DNA of 51,013 nt from Methyloversatilis sp. GTDB taxonomy: Bacteria; Pseudomonadota; Gammaproteobacteria; Burkholderiales; Rhodocyclaceae. Made by a program: the position numbers and the translations under genes. Shown piece by piece: positions 44,299 through 51,013 of the stretch (positions within the stretch are counted from its first letter, which is position 1; the number at the start of each line of letters is the position of its first letter). The notes below the pieces were generated by a model. The model worked only from the letters and a program-made list of their open reading frames with translations, was not told the origin of the DNA and ran no database searches. The stretch spans positions 1 to 51,013 of the forward strand of contig JAEUNO010000041.1 of assembly GCA_016791045.1 (NCBI GenBank). The letters run 5' to 3'.

Positions 44299-44351
44299 CG
44301 TTGCGTGTGTGCTGTGAGGGACGCCGCGCTTGCTGCGATGGTCATGGCGCC

Positions 44352-45012
44352 GATCGCGACCGGGGGTCGCTCCTACAGGGGCGGCACGCTTTTGTAGGAG
44401 CGAGCCCCGCTCGCGATGCCACCCTCCGAACACGCGCAGGCGCACGATCAACGCGCGGATCGCGACCGGGGGTCGCTCCTACAGGGGCGGCGCGGTTCCC
44501 GTAGGAGCGAGCCCCGCTCGCGATTCCACCCGTCAAATACATGATGTCGCACGATCAACGCGCCGATCGCGACCGGTGGTCGCGCCTACACCGGAGGCGC
44601 GGTTCCCGAAGGAGCGAGCCCCGCTCGCGATTCCACCCGTCAAATACATGATGTCGCATGATCAACGCGCCGATCGCGACCGGGGGTCGCGCCTACAGCG
44701 GAGGCGCGGTTCCCGTAGGAGCGAGCCCCGCTCGCGATCCCACCCGTCAAATACATGGTGTCGCACGATCAACGCGCTGATCGCGACCGTGGGTCGCTCC
44801 TACAGCGTAGGCACGGTTTTGTAGGAGCGAGCCCCGCTCGCGATTCCACCCGTCAAATACATGATGTCGCATGATCGACGCGCTGATCGCGACCGGGGGT
44901 CGCTCCTACAGCGGAGGCACGTTTCCTGTAGGAGCGAGCCCTGCTCGCGATCCGGTCCGCGAACAGGTGATGGCGCGTGACTGACGCACTGATCGCGACC
45001 GAGGGTCGCGCC
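44352..45012. repeat. REPIN tandem array 1: six units plus a half unit
   Basis: Six complete units lie at 44352-44417, 44458-44524, 44565-44631, 44672-44738, 44779-44844 and 44885-44951. A left half follows at about 44991-45012. Starts are 106-107 bp apart. Each unit is a left arm (GATCGCGACCGGGGGTCGC then TCCTACA), a 16-18 bp centre, and a right arm (GTAGGAGCGAGCCCCGCTCG then CGAT). Arms are inverted REP elements, each able to fold as a hairpin (GCGACC-GGG-GGTCGC and GCGAGC-CCC-GCTCGC) with the GTAG foot known for REP elements. Most spacers are near-identical (CCACCCGTCAAATACATGAT and following). It fills the whole gap after the secretin operon; no gene is supported in 44299-45093. Confidence 0.93.
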
Positions 45013-45045
45013 TGCCGTGTTTGCGCGGTGGCGTCGCCGTGAACG

Positions 45046-45074
45046 AAAAAAGGAAGGCAGCGCCTTCCTTTTTT
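45046..45074. terminator. bidirectional intrinsic terminator of XRE regulator gene
   Basis: AAAAAAGGAAGGC pairs perfectly with GCCTTCCTTTTTT around an AGC loop, so each strand ends in six T. It lies 20 bp after the stop of the XRE regulator gene (45094) and directly beyond the end of REPIN array 1. Confidence 0.9.
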
Positions 45075-45093
45075 GCTTTCAGCCGAACAGGTA

Positions 45094-45387
45094 TCAGCCG
45101 GCCTTGCGGTGGGCGCGGGCTTCCTTCTTCAGGCGCTTGAAGGTTTCCGGATCGGTCGCGCGCAGATATTCGACGACATCCATGTCTTCGCGACGGATCT
45201 TGCTGATGTCGATCTGTTCGACATGAACCAGACGCAGCAGAGCCTGAACTGGTTTGGGCATATTGCGGCCGCTTTCGTAGCGGGAACCGCCGCTCTGCGT
45301 CACGCCGAGGCGCGACCAGAATTGCGACTGGTTCATGCCCAGCTTCTTGCGAATCTCTCGTGCGTCGATGGTGTCACTGGATTTCAT
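45094..45387 (-). CDS. XRE family transcriptional regulator
   Basis: A 97-residue DNA-binding protein with a helix-turn-helix of the Cro/CI type at about residues 8-60 (REIRKKLGMNQSQFWSRLG, TQSGGSRYESGRNMPKPVQ) and a basic C-terminal part (LRATDPETFKRLKKEARAHR). AAGGAC lies eight bases before the ATG at 45387; the frame is open upstream to 45531, but that part crosses the promoter. A well-placed leftward promoter and an inverted repeat just downstream of its start suggest autoregulation. It is a stand-alone gene with its own terminator. Confidence 0.85.
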   Translation of the reverse strand: MKSSDTIDAREIRKKLGMNQSQFWSRLGVTQSGGSRYESGRNMPKPVQALLRLVHVEQIDISKIRREDMDVVEYLRATDPETFKRLKKEARAHRKAG

Positions 45388-45483
45388 GCTCGTTGTCCTT
45401 GAAAAAAGTGGATGGCGACCCAGCCGCGCCTGCCTTGAAAGTCCGGTCCGGGCGACTTGCTGATTCGCATAAATATGCCGCTT

Positions 45484-45509
45484 TCCCCTATCACTAAAGT
45501 CATAGGAGA
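45484..45509. promoter_or_regulatory. inverted repeat, candidate XRE operator
   Basis: TCCCCTAT (45484-45491) and ATAGGAGA (45502-45509) form an 8-bp inverted repeat with one mismatch and a 10-bp centre. It overlaps and lies just downstream of the predicted start of the XRE regulator gene. Confidence 0.5.
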
Positions 45510-45514
45510 AATTC

Positions 45515-45544
45515 AGTATAAATGAACACATCGTCCTGCATCAA
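45515..45544 (-). promoter_or_regulatory. leftward promoter of XRE regulator gene
   Basis: On the minus strand TTGATG (45539-45544) is a -35-like box, followed after 18 bp by TATACT (45515-45520), a near-consensus -10. The start would fall near 45508, about 120 bases before the ATG. Confidence 0.55.
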
Positions 45545-45579
45545 ACAGATTTGCATATTTTTGCAACTCGATTTGATGC
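45538..45579. promoter_or_regulatory. nested inverted repeat between XRE regulator and aspartate kinase genes
   Basis: GCATCAAA (45538-45545) and TTTGATGC (45572-45579) are a perfect outer pair. TTGCA (45551-45555) and TGCAA (45562-45566) form an inner pair. The left arm coincides with the -35 box of the leftward promoter. The rest of the 45388-45708 gap shows no gene. Confidence 0.5.
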
Positions 45580-45708
45580 GTGAAAAGCGGGTACGTCGAC
45601 TGGTCCTCGAGCCTGTCTTCCGGTCATCCCTCGCGAGCGCAGCGCGGCATGCAGCCGTGGCGGATCGGTTACAATCGCCGGTTTTCGTACAACGTTGCGG
45701 AAGTACAG

Positions 45709-46947
45709 ATGGCCCTCATAGTCCAGAAATACGGCGGTACGTCGGTCGGCAAGCCCGACCGCATCAAGAGCGTGGCGCGCCGCGTCGCGCGCTACGTTGC
45801 ACGCGGCGATCAGGTTATCGTCGTGGTGTCGGCGATGAGCGGCGAAACCAACCGACTGCTCGGTCTTGCGAAAGAGGTGTCTCCGGCGCCTGATCCGCGG
45901 GAACTCGACGTGCTCGCGTCGACCGGCGAACAGGTCACCATCGGCCTGCTGTCGATGGCGCTGAAGGATCTCGGCCTGAAGGCGCGCAGCTACACCGGCG
46001 GCCAGGTGCGCATCCTGACCGACAGTGCCTTCACCAAGGCGCGCATCCTGTCGATCGACGAACGCAACATCCGGCGCGATCTCGACGACGGCAATGTCGT
46101 CGTGGTGGCCGGCTTCCAGGGCGTGGACGCCGACGGCAACATCACGACGCTCGGCCGCGGCGGTTCAGACACCACCGGCGTTGCGCTGGCGGCGGCCCTG
46201 AAGGCCGACGAGTGCCAGATCTTCACGGACGTCGACGGTGTGTACACCACCGACCCGCGCATCGTCCCCGAAGCGCGCCGGCTCGACCGCATCACCTTCG
46301 AGGAAATGCTCGAAATGGCGAGCCTCGGCTCCAAGGTGCTGCAGATCCGCTCGGTCGAGTTCGCAGGCAAGTACAAGGTCAAGCTGCGCGTGCTGTCCAG
46401 TTTCGAGGACGAGGGCCACGAAGGTCCGGGTACGCTGATTACTGTCGAGGAAGAAGCCAATATGGAACAACCCATCATTTCCGGCATCGCGTTCAACCGC
46501 GACGAAGCCAAGATCACCGTTCTGGGCGTGCCTGACCGCCCGGGCATCGCCTACCAGATCCTCGGCCCCATCGCCGACGCCAACATCGACGTCGACATGA
46601 TCATCCAGAACGTCGGCCACGACGGCTCGACCGATTTCTCGTTCACGGTCAATCGCGGCGAATTCACCAAGGCGATGGAAATCGTCGAAGGCGTGCGCCA
46701 GCACATCGGCGCCCGTGAAATCAAGGGTGACAACAAGATCTGCAAGGTGTCGGCGGTCGGCGTCGGCATGCGTTCGCACCCGGGTGTCGCCAGCAAGATG
46801 TTCCGCACGCTGGCCGAAGAGGGCATCAACATCCAGATGATTTCGACCTCCGAAATCAAGGTTTCGGTGGTGCTCGACGAGAAGTATCTCGAACTCGCCG
46901 TGCGCGTGCTGCACCGCGCGTTCGAACTCGACCAGCCGGCGGCGTAA
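45709..46947 (+). CDS. lysC: aspartate kinase (LysC type, with two ACT domains)
   Basis: A 412-residue cytoplasmic enzyme that phosphorylates aspartate, the first step towards lysine, threonine and methionine. The kinase core begins ALIVQKYGGTSVG and includes GRGGSDTTGVALAAAL and FTDVDGVYTTDPR. Two ACT domains follow from about residue 255 (ITVLGVPDRPGIAYQILG and the region around VGVGMRSHPGVASKMF), so feedback inhibition by lysine and/or threonine is expected. The start at 45709 is set by the conserved N-terminus; the frame is open to 45580. An internal ATG at 46462 with GAGGAAG upstream could give a separate regulatory subunit, as known in alpha2-beta2 aspartokinases. Confidence 0.95.
   Translation: MALIVQKYGGTSVGKPDRIKSVARRVARYVARGDQVIVVVSAMSGETNRLLGLAKEVSPAPDPRELDVLASTGEQVTIGLLSMALKDLGLKARSYTGGQVRILTDSAFTKARILSIDERNIRRDLDDGNVVVVAGFQGVDADGNITTLGRGGSDTTGVALAAALKADECQIFTDVDGVYTTDPRIVPEARRLDRITFEEMLEMASLGSKVLQIRSVEFAGKYKVKLRVLSSFEDEGHEGPGTLITVEEEANMEQPIISGIAFNRDEAKITVLGVPDRPGIAYQILGPIADANIDVDMIIQNVGHDGSTDFSFTVNRGEFTKAMEIVEGVRQHIGAREIKGDNKICKVSAVGVGMRSHPGVASKMFRTLAEEGINIQMISTSEIKVSVVLDEKYLELAVRVLHRAFELDQPAA
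46462..46947 (+). other. possible internal start for aspartate kinase beta subunit
   Basis: An ATG at 46462 (MEQPIISGIAF) lies at the junction between the kinase core and the ACT region and is preceded by GAGGAAGAAG. This is the position used for the beta subunit in Bacillus, Corynebacterium and Pseudomonas aspartokinases. It would encode 161 residues. Confidence 0.5.
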
Positions 46948-47022
46948 TCCGCCCGGCAGGCGCGATGCGCGTTTGACCCGGGCAGGGTCAGGCGGTATGA
47001 TTCGCGCGCTTTTGGAAGGACC

Positions 47023-47116
47023 GGAGGGGTGGCCGAGTGGTCGAAGGCACTCCCCTGCTAAGGGAGCATACGGGCCAAAACCTGTATCGAGGGTTCGAAT
47101 CCCTCCTCCTCCGCCA
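47023..47116 (+). tRNA. tRNA-Ser (anticodon GCT)
   Basis: The acceptor GGAGGGG pairs with CTCCTCC (one G-T pair). A long variable arm typical of Ser is present. The loop CTGCTAA in a CTCCC/GGGAG stem gives anticodon GCT. The T-loop is TTCGAAT. The CCA end is encoded. Confidence 0.96.
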
Positions 47117-47170
47117 GTTTCAGAGCTTGAACGGCAGTATATTTGTGCTAATATATTGCCTCTTTGCAGC

Positions 47171-47247
47171 GCGCCCGTAGCTCAGCTGGATAGAGTACTT
47201 GGCTACGAACCAAGGGGTCGGGCGTTCGAATCGCTCCGGGCGCGCCA
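47171..47247 (+). tRNA. tRNA-Arg (anticodon ACG)
   Basis: The acceptor GCGCCCG pairs with CGGGCGC. The anticodon stem CTTGG/CCAAG holds loop CTACGAA with anticodon ACG, which is read after editing to ICG. The T-loop is TTCGAAT. The CCA end is encoded. Confidence 0.96.
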
Positions 47248-47270
47248 ACAACGCAAAGACAGTCGGAAAG

Positions 47271-47298
47271 AAAAGCCAGTCGTCAGACTGGCTTTTTT
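47271..47298 (+). terminator. terminator after the tRNA-Ser/tRNA-Arg pair
   Basis: AGCCAGTC (47274-47281) pairs with GACTGGCT (47286-47293) around a GTCA loop, followed by six T. Confidence 0.88.
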
Positions 47299-47374
47299 CT
47301 TTTGTGCGGTCGGGGATGAATGGCCGGGGCTGCGAAGGGGCCAAGGAGCGGACCAAAGAGCGGACCAAGGCGTT

Positions 47375-47659
47375 TCATGCGGCGATGCGCGCGACCGGCG
47401 CGCGGCCCTTCGCCCGTTGCGCCGCTGCCCACAGATCGCGCTGTGCCTGCAGGCGCAGCCAGTAACCGGGCGTGGTTCCAAGGGCTTCCGACAGCCGTAG
47501 ATCCATGTCTGCGCTCACTGCAGCGTGCCCGTGCAGGATACGTGACAACATCACGCGACTGATTTCCAGGTGTGCAGCGAACGCCGTCACGCTCATGTTC
47601 AGGTCTTCAAGCCATCCGGCCAGAAGTTCGCCGGGCGGAGCGGGGTCATGCATGTCCAT
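47375..47659 (-). CDS. higA: HigA-type antitoxin
   Basis: A 94-residue DNA-binding antitoxin of the HigA/VapI group. It begins MDMHDPAPPGELLAGWLED, followed by an XRE helix-turn-helix (MSVTAFAAHLEISRVMLSRI and GHAAVSADMDLRLSEALG) and the typical TTPGYWLRLQAQRDLW end. GAGG lies eight bases before the ATG at 47659. It follows the toxin gene by 10 bp, the toxin-first order usual for higBA. It should neutralise HigB and repress the operon. Confidence 0.93.
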   Translation of the reverse strand: MDMHDPAPPGELLAGWLEDLNMSVTAFAAHLEISRVMLSRILHGHAAVSADMDLRLSEALGTTPGYWLRLQAQRDLWAAAQRAKGRAPVARIAA

Positions 47660-47669
47660 CGTTCAAGCC

Positions 47670-47948
47670 TCAGTGATAATCGACGTAATCCACCAGTTCG
47701 ACGTTCGGGCCATCAAAGCGAAAAACCAGTCGCCAGTTCGCTTGAACTGTCACCGCGTGAAATCCAGCCCGATTTCCCACCAGCGAGTGCAGTCGCCACG
47801 ATGGCCGCGCCAGATCGTCCGCGCTGGCCGCCGCGTTCAGCGCTGTCAGCAATTCGCGTAGTCGCTTGGCGTGCATCGGTTGAATACCGGCCTGCTTTCC
47901 ACTGCGGAAGAAGGCCTCAAGCCCCTTGTGGCGAAACGAATTGATCAT
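47670..47948 (-). CDS. higB: HigB-type toxin (RelE/ParE superfamily)
   Basis: A 92-residue RelE-fold toxin predicted to cut mRNA on the ribosome. It begins MINSFRHKGLEAFFRSG, the classical HigB start, and has LHSLVGNRAGFHAVTVQANWRLVFRF with the conserved basic and aromatic residues, ending VDYVDYH. The start at 47948 agrees with homologues; an ATG five codons upstream (47963) is the alternative. It is encoded just before higA on the same strand, about 0.7 kb beyond a tRNA-Arg gene. Confidence 0.92.
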   Translation of the reverse strand: MINSFRHKGLEAFFRSGKQAGIQPMHAKRLRELLTALNAAASADDLARPSWRLHSLVGNRAGFHAVTVQANWRLVFRFDGPNVELVDYVDYH

Positions 47949-48273
47949 AAATCGTAAATCCATGCTTTACAACAAGGCGCTCGCCATCGATCCGGTGTTC
48001 ATGGAAGAAAGCGCTTGAAGCCTTACATCGCACCCGCTCCGAAAAAACCGAAGCGAGAATCGCGACGCCTGAACGTCGTCAGGTTCATGTCTGACATCGC
48101 TGCAAGCGCTTCCAATTAAGCATGGCCCACGATTCTACCTATGCAAATGTCGTTGCAGGCGTTGTCCGATCTATGAACGCAGCGGCCTTGATCAAGCGCA
48201 AGGCGGATTCGCAGGCGGCATCCATGCTTGAAGTGTCGAAGGCACCCGCCTTCGCATCACATGGAGATGTGTC
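47949..48273. other. intergenic region without a supported gene
   Basis: This 325-bp stretch separates higB from the protein at 48274. It holds the higBA promoter region and short frames only. An 18-codon rightward frame from 47963 reads like the end of a TPR repeat (YNKALAIDP), and a 69-codon frame from 48122 has no recognisable content and runs into the next gene. It may hold remnants of older genes, but nothing firm. Confidence 0.4.
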
Positions 48274-48903
48274 ATGCCGAAGATCACCGATCTCATCAAT
48301 CCCGGACTTCATCGCCCCACCGGACCGGTAGTGCGCCCGCCGCTGGAATTCGCCAAGGCGACCGTGATCCTGTTCGACGATGTGCCCGAGGGCACCGTGA
48401 TCGACACCCAGTACAGCGCGAAGGGCGTGACCTTCGCGTCCATCACCACCAGCCCGGCCAAGCGCTGGCATGCCTACGCGCGTTCGGCCTGGGGCATGGA
48501 ATCGGCCCCCAACGGCATTTCGGTGGTCGCGCCGCCCCAGCTCTGCATGTTCGACGCGCGCCAGGGCGGCATCGAGGCCGTCTTCGCCAAGCCGCAGCGA
48601 TGGGTATCGATCGATGCCAAGCCGATGGAGGCGCCCGAAGGCATGACCGCGGCGACAGCGCAGCCTTTCCTCGAAGCCTATGACGCCGCGGGAAAGCTGC
48701 TTGGACGCGCCGAGTACCCGGTGGCGCACGGCGCTGCAGGGTGGGGTACATGGCAGATCGTGCTTTATTCGTCGACCACCGCCAATATCGCGAAGGTCAT
48801 CTTCTCGTGCTCGCGCGACGGCAACACGCCGGTCTATGCGCTGTTCGACCGCTTTGCATTTGCGCCCGAACGTTCGCTGATCGCACGTCCGCTGGGCGGC
48901 TGA
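48274..48903 (+). CDS. conserved-looking protein of unknown function, beta-rich
   Basis: A 209-residue protein with no signal peptide or membrane helix. I do not recognise a family. The stretch VILFDDVPEGTVIDTQYSAKGVTFAS resembles the start of lectin-like or PEP-CTERM-associated surface domains, in which a FDD...GT...Y...GV.F pattern is common, but there is no export signal or PEP-CTERM tail. The rest alternates short hydrophobic stretches typical of a beta sandwich and ends FDRFAFAPERSLIARPLGG. GGAG precedes the ATG by seven bases, so it is probably a real gene. Monocistronic, 72 bp upstream of a TraR/DksA-type gene. Confidence 0.6.
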   Translation: MPKITDLINPGLHRPTGPVVRPPLEFAKATVILFDDVPEGTVIDTQYSAKGVTFASITTSPAKRWHAYARSAWGMESAPNGISVVAPPQLCMFDARQGGIEAVFAKPQRWVSIDAKPMEAPEGMTAATAQPFLEAYDAAGKLLGRAEYPVAHGAAGWGTWQIVLYSSTTANIAKVIFSCSRDGNTPVYALFDRFAFAPERSLIARPLGG

Positions 48904-48976
48904 CGCGATCGTCCATCCGATCCTGGATAACCACGCCATACAGAAGGCCACCACAGGCCCTGAGGAGAAACAAGTC

Positions 48977-49366
48977 ATGAATCTGCCCCTGACCGCAGCA
49001 CAACGTCAGCGCCTCGAAGAAATCCTGCGTCAGGAACATGGCGAACTGAGCGCACGACGCAAGGCATACCTCGGCGGCCTGACGCGCGCCGAGCATGCCC
49101 GCGAAGTGCTTCTTCAGGACGGCGACGACGCGCCGCAGCGCGCTTCCGACCGGGAAATCGATCTGCAGCGTGTCGAAGAAGACGTCGCACGCCTGGCCGA
49201 CATCGACGCCGCGCTGCAGCGCATCGCCGAAGGCCGGTACGGTGTCTGCAGCGCGTGCGGCGAAGACATCCCGGCCGGACGGCTCGAAGTTGCGCCGTAC
49301 ACCCGGTACTGCGTCGCCTGCGAAGCGCAACGCGAACGCGGCCTCAAACCCGCCGCAAGCCTGTAG
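48977..49366 (+). CDS. TraR/DksA family zinc-finger protein
   Basis: A 129-residue cytoplasmic protein with a helical N-terminal part (about 1-85) and a C4 zinc finger: C91-SAC94 and C112-VAC115. The layout GRYGVCSACGEDIPAGRLEV...YTRYCVACEA is typical of the family whose members bind RNA polymerase through the secondary channel (DksA, TraR) or have unknown roles. It is shorter than DksA (about 150), so it is a paralogue. The start at 48977 follows GAGGAGAAA. The second REPIN array begins about 55 bp downstream. Confidence 0.87.
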   Translation: MNLPLTAAQRQRLEEILRQEHGELSARRKAYLGGLTRAEHAREVLLQDGDDAPQRASDREIDLQRVEEDVARLADIDAALQRIAEGRYGVCSACGEDIPAGRLEVAPYTRYCVACEAQRERGLKPAASL

Positions 49367-49422
49367 CGTCGGCGCCCGCCGTCCCGCACACCAGGCCACA
49401 CCCCAAGGTACAGCAAGGCTTT

Positions 49423-50128
49423 TGCAGGAGCGAGCCATGCTCGCGATGCGGTCTCCGATGACGTGAGGGTGCGTGATTGACGTGGTGATCGCGACCGGGG
49501 GTCGCTCCTACAGGGGCGGCGCGGTTCTTGTAGGAGCGAGCCGTGCTCGCGATGCGGGCTTCGACTACGTGAGGGTGCGTGATTGACGTGTTGATCGCGA
49601 CCGGGGGGCGCTCCTACAGGGGCGGTGCGGTTTTGTAGGAGCGAGCCCTGCTCGCGATGCGGTCTTCGAACAGGTGATGGCGCGTGATCAGCGTGTTGAT
49701 CGCGACCGGGGGTCGCTCCTACAGGGGCGGCGCGGTTTTGTAGGAGCGAGCCATGCTCGCGATGCGGTCTCCGATGACGTGAGGGTGCGTGATTGACGTG
49801 TTGATCGCGACCGGGGGTCGCTCCTACAGGGGCGGTGCGGTTTTGTAGGAGCGAGCCATGCTCGCGATGCGGTCTTCGAACAGGTGAGGGTGCGTGATCA
49901 GCGTGTTGATCGCGACCGGGGGGCGCTCCTACAGGGGCGGCGCGGTTTTTTGTAGGAGCGAGCCATGCTCGCGATGCGGTCTCCGATTACGTGAGGGTGC
50001 GTGATTGACGTGTTGATCGCGACCGGGGGTCGCTCCTACAGGGGCGGTGCGGTTTTGTAGGAGCGAGCCATGCTCGCGATCCGGTCTTCGATTACGTGAG
50101 GGTGCGTGATTGACGTAGTGATCGCGAC
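49423..50128. repeat. REPIN tandem array 2: six full units flanked by two half units
   Basis: A right half lies at 49423-49447. Six units follow at 49487-49553, 49593-49658, 49698-49763, 49803-49868, 49908-49975 and 50015-50080. A cut left half sits at 50120-50128. Spacing is 105-107 bp. The arms are as in array 1, but the right arm loop is mostly CAT (GCGAGC-CAT-GCTCGC) instead of CCC. Spacers fall into two types, one with GATGACGTGAGGGTGCGTG and one with CGAACAGGTGATGGCGCGTG, which alternate over much of the array. The array runs from about 55 bp after the TraR/DksA gene to 63 bp before the RAYT gene; no other gene fits in 49367-50190. Confidence 0.93.
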
Positions 50129-50148
50129 AAGGCGGGAGCGTCGGAATT

Positions 50149-50164
50149 ATGGATGGCAATCCAT
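50149..50164. promoter_or_regulatory. perfect palindrome upstream of RAYT gene
   Basis: ATGGAT GGCA ATCCAT is a perfect 6-bp inverted repeat with a 4-base centre, ending 26 bases before the RAYT ATG. It could be an operator or an RNA hairpin in the leader; no known protein is assigned. Confidence 0.4.
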
Positions 50165-50190
50165 ACGAACGGCATATATCCTTCCATTGA

Positions 50191-50634
50191 ATGCATACCC
50201 CTCCGCGCCAGAGCCGGTTACGTACCGGTCGTATCTCCATCCCGGGTCAGGTTTATCACCTCACCTTTGTGACGCGAAGCCGCAGGCCCTTCTTCAATGA
50301 CTTCCGGATTGCGCGTGCTGCCGTTTGTGCGCTCCGCAGGGCGGCGGATCGTGGTGATGCCGACACCTTGGCTTATGTGTTGATGCCTGATCATCTGCAC
50401 TGGCTGATGGTGTTGGGCCCCGATCGATCCCTTGGCAAGGTGGTGCAGGCATTCAAGAGCGCAAGCGCCCGGCGCGTCGGGCAGCCGATCTGGCAGTCCG
50501 GCTTTCACGACCACGCGCTTCGAACCGACGAAGACTGCCACGCGATTGCACGTTACATCGTCGCAAATCCGTTGCGCAGAGGCCTTGTCGCGCGGGTGGG
50601 CGATTATCCGCATTGGGATGCCGTGTGGCTGTAG
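50191..50634 (+). CDS. REP-associated tyrosine transposase (RAYT)
   Basis: A 147-residue member of the Y1/HUH transposase family (IS200/IS605-like TnpA_REP). It starts RISIPGQVYHLTFVTRSRRPFF, the usual RAYT opening. The HUH metal motif is H68-L-H70 in MPDHLHWLM, and the catalytic tyrosine is Y122 in ARYIVANPLRRGL. All key residues are intact, so single-strand cleavage next to GTAG-foot REP hairpins is expected. It stands alone, with no terminal repeats of its own, and is flanked on both sides by the REPIN arrays it probably generated, which is the defining arrangement of a domesticated RAYT. It is shorter than Pseudomonas RAYTs, probably a compact group. Confidence 0.93.
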   Translation: MHTPPRQSRLRTGRISIPGQVYHLTFVTRSRRPFFNDFRIARAAVCALRRAADRGDADTLAYVLMPDHLHWLMVLGPDRSLGKVVQAFKSASARRVGQPIWQSGFHDHALRTDEDCHAIARYIVANPLRRGLVARVGDYPHWDAVWL

Positions 50635-50664
50635 CGGAGAGGCCATCCTGTCGGCAAGTGGACG

Positions 50665-51013
50665 CTGGCGCGTGATCGACGTGTGGAATCGCGACCGGGG
50701 GTCGCTCCTACAGGGGGGCGGTGCGGTTTTGTAGGAGCGAGCCATGCTCGCGATGCGGGCTTCGAATGCGTGAGGGTGCGTGATCGACGTGTGGAATCGC
50801 GACCGGGGGTCGCTCCTACAGGGGCGGTGCGGTTCTTGTAGGAGCGAGCCATGCTCGCGATGCGGGCTTCGAATACGTGAGGGTGCGTGATCGACATGTG
50901 GAATCGCGACCGGGGGTCGCTCCTACAAGGGCGGCGCGGGTTCTTGTAGGAGCGAGCCATGCTCGCGATGCGGTCTTCGAATACGTGAGGGTGCGTGATC
51001 GACGTGTTGATCG
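50665..51013. repeat. REPIN tandem array 3: three units, cut by window end
   Basis: It begins with spacer-like sequence (GCGCGTGATCGACGTGTGG) at 50668-50686. Units follow at 50687-50754, 50795-50861 and 50902-50969, and a new left arm starts at 51009, cut by the window end. Spacing is 107-108 bp. Right arms all have the CAT loop. Left arms start GAATCGCGACC instead of GATCGCGACC, a variant specific to this array. The array probably goes on beyond the window. Confidence 0.92.

Follow-up and report, generated by a model that had tools for sequence, protein, structure and literature searches.

Tandem REPIN arrays beside a RAYT gene in a Methyloversatilis-like genome, and other REP classes at the same sites in its relatives

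Tandem bacterial interspersed mosaic elements (BIMEs), rayt genes flanked by BIMEs, and families of repetitive extragenic palindromic (REP) sequences lying mostly in regularly spaced clusters have been published (PMC2817692, PMC3733652, PMC3116915, and PMC3686654; here and below, the literature is cited from those parts of the papers that were available). We analyzed a 51,013-base stretch of DNA (the window), which is the entire contig C34 of a draft genome of 3.54 Mb in 47 contigs, and which contains a REP-associated tyrosine transposase (RAYT) gene and three tandem arrays of REPINs, that is, pairs of inverted REP hairpins. The locus is a true REPIN/RAYT system with BIME-like arrays, of the kind described in those four papers between 2010 and 2013. 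An earlier note on this DNA, made from the sequence alone, had recognized a REPIN/RAYT system in tandem arrays, which was borne out by Tandem Repeats Finder, an arm scan, and the identity of the RAYT; its description of REPINs as usually dispersed singles or small clusters was incomplete, as the published tandem BIMEs and clustered REP families show. New here is the observation that at six sites close relatives mostly carried another REP class at the same spot, sometimes as one REPIN against an array, and that more distant relatives were often empty.

The REPIN/RAYT system of Pseudomonas fluorescens SBW25 (Bertels and Rainey 2011, PMC3116915) resembles our locus in its inverted hairpins tagged with GTAG/GTGG, in a spacer that is conserved in length and less conserved in sequence than the REPs, in ordered tandem clusters of REPINs with flanking sequence included, and in clusters beside each RAYT. 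However, SBW25 has mostly doublets (61%) and 16 ordered clusters, the largest with four REPINs, whereas nearly all REPs examined here lay in arrays, which held up to 12 REPINs. The BIMEs of Nunvar et al. (2010, PMC2817692) are similar in their alternating REPs in tandem modules, BIME-flanked rayt, fast-evolving RAYT, and compensatory REP changes, and the REPs of Xanthomonas campestris in the same study lie mostly in regularly spaced clusters; the inter-REP segments of the Stenotrophomonas BIMEs reported there are unrelated, whereas our spacers and linkers were homologous between arrays. The GTAG-1 families of Thauera sp. MZ1T and others (Di Nocera et al. 2013, PMC3733652) likewise comprise largely clustered GTAG REPs with dimers reiterated in tandem, but the available parts of that paper do not describe sharing of sites between species. 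In the "orthoswitch" (Nunvar et al. 2013, PMC3686654), related strains also have different REP classes and new classes may partly replace old ones; it concerns REPs flanking orthologous RAYTs, whereas we compared six array sites and found the RAYTs at different places.

The intact RAYT gene that the earlier note had placed beside the arrays was confirmed as an open reading frame (ORF) of 147 amino acids at 50191–50634 on the forward strand. The protein matched the profiles NF047646 (143.8 bits; cut-off 80) and PF01797 (44.9 bits), aligned to TnpArep (PDB ID: 4er8) with an E value of 1.7e-9, and had the HUH motif H68-L-H70 and a catalytic-type tyrosine, Y122, as in the Y1 transposase fold family. 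It was the sole match in the genome, both by protein search and by PF01797, and REPs lay on both sides of it, in arrays 2 and 3. Tandem Repeats Finder gave the three arrays as 44347–44951 (period 107), 49420–50128 (period 105), and 50670–51007 (period 108), the third being cut by the contig end.

Two types of arm occurred in the arrays, R (stem GCGAGC/GCTCGC) and L (stem GCGACC/GGTCGC), each of which closed its own hairpin. A REPIN of 89 bp consisted of a GTAG-tagged hairpin R, a spacer of 43 bp, and the inverted hairpin L. In an example on the forward strand, the R arm with its stem behind the GTAG tag occupied 50731–50753, the spacer 50754–50796, and the L arm, ending in CTAC, 50797–50819, and a linker of 18 bp (50820–50837), the length of which varied among arrays, joined it to the next REPIN. 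This alternation of two REP types in tandem, with conserved inter-REP segments, is that of a tandem-type BIME. In GTAG-outside pairs, where L follows R, the start-to-start distance was 65–68 bp in 161 of 162 pairs, as expected of REPs inverted at a fixed distance, and in the sister genome G121 it was 64–66 bp in all 22 neighboring pairs (hand count from exact matches). In GTAG-inside pairs, where R follows L, the 182 distances lay between 33 and 77 bp, with lengths specific to the array (0 of 10000 permutations reached this, with the odd array C6:17030 left out); in G121 they were 47 bp or more (exact matches). A REPIN orientation called HH, with a length-conserved spacer, has been reported (PMC3116915, PMC3733652), and by the rule given in PMC3733652 HH spacers (GTAG outside) are conserved while those called TT are variable. 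Because the GTAG-outside pair was rigid in length, as in the published orientation, the spacer of about 40 bp in the earlier note lies inside the REPIN, and the REPIN of 66 bp proposed there spans two neighbors: it is the junction of two REPINs, the rigid unit being the 89-bp one. The tandem repeat reported in that note was therefore real but its boundaries were misplaced. A GTAG-inside element of 64–66 bp was rejected as the basic unit by the variable GTAG-inside and rigid GTAG-outside spacing, with the reservation that GTAG-inside doublets were also solitary in G121, so that mobility of this pair is not denied. The amplified period, REPIN plus linker, was 105–109 bp in most arrays, and since the linker between REPINs was also common to different arrays, the amplified unit is larger than one REPIN, as had been proposed.

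All three arrays were annotated on the forward strand. Array 1 (44354–45015) had 13 arms, 7 of the GACC-type L and 6 of the GAGC-type R, with six complete GTAG-outside REPINs at 44394–44482, 44501–44589, 44608–44696, 44715–44803, 44821–44909, and 44928–45015. Array 2 (49424–50079) also had 13 arms and six complete REPINs, at 49424–49511, 49530–49617, 49635–49722, 49740–49827, 49845–49932, and 49952–50039. The 6 arms of array 3 (50689–50968) included two complete REPINs, at 50731–50819 and 50838–50926; this array meets the contig end at 51013, and its counted length is that of the observed part. Complete GTAG-outside REPINs thus numbered 6 + 6 + 2 = 14; the at least 15 inverted-REP units counted earlier, in three arrays with a period of 105–108 bp, corresponded to the GTAG-inside register (6 + 6 + 3 = 15). 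Array 1 sits between convergent genes for a secretin-domain protein and an RsaL-like helix-turn-helix (HTH) protein (names from Pfam), and array 2 lies downstream of a dksA/traR zinc-finger gene and upstream of the RAYT gene. At the edge of array 1, 44332–44353 on the forward strand was by eye a spacer-like remnant, similar to the spacer of the GTGG-class arrays at the same site in the relatives G005 and G123. A HigB-like toxin gene (PF05015) and an adjoining HTH gene on the reverse strand (47375–47948), located between arrays 1 and 2, are likely to be a toxin-antitoxin pair.

The mean pairwise identity of the spacer was 0.851 in array 1 (arms 0.983 and 0.939; 10 pairs) and 0.867 in array 2 (arms 0.959 and 0.977; 15 pairs); the one pair in array 3 had 0.953 in the spacer and 1.0 in the arms. 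Across the genome, for the 135 units among 161 that were exactly 89 bp long, spacer identity was 0.859 within arrays and 0.741 between them, while arm identity was 0.943–0.961 within and 0.931–0.934 between. Equal conservation of spacer and hairpin, which the earlier note had stated, was therefore ruled out (85–87% against 94–98% in arrays 1 and 2, and 74–86% against 93–96% genome-wide). The spacer nevertheless belongs to the repeat, since its identity was far above that of shuffled spacers (0.287). Linkers showed an identity of 0.81–0.89 within arrays and 0.52–0.74 between them (160 of 180 linkers, those of 17–20 bp), and in BIME-2 of Escherichia coli the inter-REP segments are homologous between arrays as well. 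Among exactly framed arms of the stretches examined, complementarity of all three free stem pairs was seen in 273 of 280 arms of the source genome (G000), 49 of 52 of G121, 27 of 30 of G122, and 5 of 5 of M. thermotolerans (G124), and the stem bases covaried over at least four stem types (GAG/CTC, GAC/GTC, GGA/TCC, and CTG/CAG). Such complementarity with differing bases is what one would expect if the hairpin of each individual arm were retained. From this pattern of identities, the arms look as though they are held by a genome-wide constraint, and the spacer and linker by local descent.

A search of the genome with the REP pattern GTAGGAGCGAGCNNNGCTCGCGA at up to two mismatches gave 175 + 161 = 336 matches, of which the window contained 27; the reversed pattern gave 1, so the REPs are not due to chance. 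The window and 33 further stretches contained 326 of these matches. A lenient scan of the 34 stretches (up to five mismatches, each cluster having at least one arm with up to two) found 397 arms in 43 clusters, and the 42 clusters with at least three arms held 395 of them, the largest having 24; the stretches were picked around exact matches, so solitary degenerate REPs elsewhere are undercounted. The REPs were abundant and extragenic: none of the 43 clusters was spanned by a gene called with our home-made gene caller, ORFs half or more inside an array having been dropped beforehand. In the 28 clusters whose neighbors could be scored with this caller, without a genome-wide baseline, the flanking genes were convergent at 20, co-directional at 7, and divergent at 1; 14 of the 15 unscored clusters were at contig ends. 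A similar non-REP flank of about 40–70 bp, starting with GTCAATTCTC, adjoined three arrays (C15:17518, C40:32280, and C45:48337).

Fourteen of the 43 clusters lay within 250 bp of a contig end, and Illumina-adapter-like sequence was present at two array-bearing contig ends (L046:14947–14988, where C27 ends, and L038, where C17 starts). Contigs of the draft thus break off or end wrongly at REPIN arrays, and the true arrays are probably longer. Together with the 47 contigs, these features would also fit an assembly artefact in which repeats had been multiplied or misjoined in a short-read draft. However, all 161 units were distinct in sequence, which argues against duplicated assembly, the contig breaks suggest undercounting, and arrays of the same REP were found inside a 4.1-Mb scaffold of M. 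thermotolerans; an artefact, which the earlier note had named as one way in which its reading could fail, is thus extremely improbable.

The 3' part of the secretin gene showed 92–93% DNA identity to three named Methyloversatilis genomes (G121, G122, and G123), and the host was therefore taken as a Methyloversatilis-like member of the Rhodocyclaceae; Thauera is a related genus. Among 121 genomes of the family, the source genome included, the REP pattern had any match in five and more than one only in the source genome and in G083, which carries Y1_Tnp matches and whose 24 REP matches had another stem with two mismatches. Abundance of the repeats in relatives lacking a RAYT, the other finding that the earlier note would have held against itself, was seen in none of the 121 genomes sampled. 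Three genomes of the same genus had 1, 0, and 0 matches, and two of them had RAYT relatives. M. thermotolerans gave 54 exact matches of a wider pattern, including runs at 124-bp steps, with all listed matches on the 4.1-Mb scaffold, and a 124-bp array of 7.6 copies adjoined its RAYT. Tandem repeats with a period of at least 55 bp were found at 37 of 109 RAYT-relative loci scanned, which is an upper bound for REPIN arrays because several, by eye, were not REPs (CRISPR-like at L096; coding at L066, L134, and L171). When six other pieces of the window were compared with the flanks (up to 1.5 or 4 kb) of the RAYT loci of 14 relatives (tblastn, E 1e-5; one piece with coordinates set by eye and X for stops), none gave a match, and no common RAYT neighborhood was seen within the flanks compared. 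Another repeat, some 110 bp long and containing GGTCGGCCCTGCATGGCCGACC, occurred at L061:3665–3782 (C45 of the source genome) and, among the matches listed, at least at dozens of places in G121 and G122, beside or inside GGAC/CTGC REPs; from this placement, it may be a nested non-autonomous element.

We compared six array sites with their orthologous sites in relatives. REPs occupied the corresponding spot at 6 of 6 sites in G005, 6 of 6 in G121 (one a single half-element), 5 of 5 in G123, and 4 of 5 examined in G122, and none was of the window's class: G121 and G122 had GGAC/CTGC arms (G121 the GTGG class at two sites), and G005 and G123 the GTGG class. More distant relatives were empty at 3 of 3 sites (G070), 2 of 4 (G118), and 1 of 3 (G125). 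At slots A and B, a single pair in G005 and G123 stood against 16 and 8 REPs in the source genome, and at slot 1 G122 had 5 REPs against 3 in G121; the number was not always lower in relatives (18 in G123 against 12 at site 1, and 10 in G122 against 11 at site C). In two syntenic stretches with 17 gaps, the seven REP gaps of the source genome, two of which held only REP-like matches that were not of the window's class at two mismatches, included 7 of the 8 of G005 and 6 of the 7 of G123 (hypergeometric test, 4e-4 and 4e-3, respectively; 9e-4 for G123 without the uncovered end gap). Sites were entered by hand, one G005 match inside an aligned coding stretch was dropped before counting, and the test ignores the preference for convergent gaps.

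At sites C and D, the source genome kept an edge relic of the GGAC class found there in G121 and G122 (by eye, with single matching hits). The RAYT of G121 and G122 (71% identical) sits in site C, where the source genome has an array; at site 1 of M. thermotolerans, a RAYT-like, degenerate-looking reading frame adjoins the array (by eye; not among the PF01797 matches); and G122 had one array of the source genome's own class, with flanks similar by eye to those of array C43:33266. Swapping of arms in place within old arrays was not supported, as in most cases some array other than the orthologous one was closest to the sister spacer. By spacer, the orthologous array ranked 25, 25, 4, 6, 2, 26, 13, 4, 4, 13, 22, 17, and 17 among 41 (the first two being one spacer in two genomes and the last two one spacer in two contigs), the ranks at sites 2 and A (4, 6, and 2) being better than most others.

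From the anatomy, copy number, conservation pattern, and local similarity observed, and from the sharing of sites with other REP classes, we infer every enzymatic step and the route of amplification. It is likely that the REPINs of this genome, nearly all of which stand in BIME-like arrays, were seeded by the RAYT and amplified locally, with the arms kept by selection or RAYT use. The RAYT would recognize GTAG-tagged hairpins in single-stranded DNA (single-strand cutting and a role of GTAG are described in PMC8266576) and would found new REPINs mainly in gaps between convergent genes. The 107-bp period of REPIN plus linker would then multiply locally at each site by slippage, by unequal recombination, or by copying primed by the RAYT (PMC8049555 describes how tandem REPINs are gained and lost locally), and selection or continued RAYT use would keep the arms while spacer and linker drifted and became array-specific. 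This seeding and local growth is supported by the identity of the RAYT, the stem covariation, and the rigid GTAG-outside spacing, also in G121; by spacers and linkers more alike within than between arrays while the arms were nearly equal, and by array-specific linker lengths; and by the single pairs at slots A and B in G005 and G123, the differing REP numbers of G121 and G122 at slot 1, and the 20 of 28 arrays in convergent gaps.

Several points weigh against it. Because linkers were related between arrays, a single REPIN was probably not the whole of the founding unit. Within an array, a unit resembled its neighbors little more than it resembled distant units (0.867, against 0.860 when the order was permuted; p 0.063), so that a neighbor gradient by slippage was rejected, one-step slippage is not favored, and block amplification or rolling-circle copying is left open. 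The phases of the array ends (38 left and 41 right ends of the 43 arrays, those uncut by a stretch end) were scattered over the period, which ruled out fixed ends. GTAG-outside and GTAG-inside pairs both stood alone in G121 (L174, L178, and L180 of one kind and L181, L182, and L184 of the other), so that either pair may be the mobile unit. The homologous linkers and the lack of a clear gradient also fit a published model (PMC2817692) in which the RAYT itself makes arrays by cutting at the REPs of one module, a rolling circle copies this module, and a ready-made multi-unit BIME integrates, as do the arrays on both sides of this RAYT. However, linker length and spacer were array-specific and the spacers of units in one array differed by about 14%, which requires any ready-made blocks to be old, and slots A and B held a single pair in two other genomes; we regard this route as conceivable but unlikely.

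Host function offers another explanation, in which the RAYT only founded the arrays and they are kept mainly as RNA hairpins or terminators at convergent 3' ends or for binding of gyrase or IHF. The 20 convergent positions and the genome-wide conservation of the arms agree with it, host roles of REPs have been published, and three folded REPINs formed hairpins more stable than the shuffle mean (z −3.82, −4.72, and −2.09). On the other hand, 6 of 200 shuffles folded as well as the third of these, and slot 1 was empty in the congeners G070, G118, and G125, which indicated that it is dispensable there; we therefore doubt that host function is the main reason for the arrays.

As to the shared sites, we tentatively propose, while giving it less than even weight, that the genus reuses a fixed set of intergenic slots, mostly convergent gaps, by successive RAYT/REPIN classes, with lineage-specific rewriting of arms, edge relics of older classes, RAYTs in the same slots, and many slots grown from one REPIN to satellite-like arrays in the window's lineage. 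If so, one replicator after another within the genome would have left its trace in the arrays. The greatest novelty lies in the turnover of classes at reused sites, whatever its mechanism, and reuse across species is suggested by the six sites compared. In the available parts of the literature searched, no description was found of different REP classes reusing the same intergenic sites in different species, with a single REPIN in one lineage and an array in another, and no relevant paper on REPs in Methyloversatilis or Rhodocyclaceae was found, as judged by titles and the beginnings of abstracts. Two features are noteworthy, namely that almost all REPs found stand in arrays and that related species use the same spots for other versions of the repeat: they add a genome with nearly all examined REPs in tandem, and close relatives with the same sites in empty, single-REPIN, and array states. 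The old question of whether RAYT or recombination drives the growth of REPIN clusters is now open to direct test by strain comparison at named sites.

Two further features were noted at the REP sites of G005. An ORF for an IS110-family transposase (PF01548, PF02371) lay in L231, the element's places being L231:431–1555, L194:307–1431, and L217, and an identical 27-base end of this insertion sequence was found in REP sites 1 and 2 and, by eye, site D, as if an IS110-family element targeted REPs in this genome. In L205 and L231, short tandem runs of a REP fragment (GTGGGAGCTTGCT and CAGCCAGAGCCAGCTCCCA) adjoined single REPINs, and these are perhaps another route of tandem growth.

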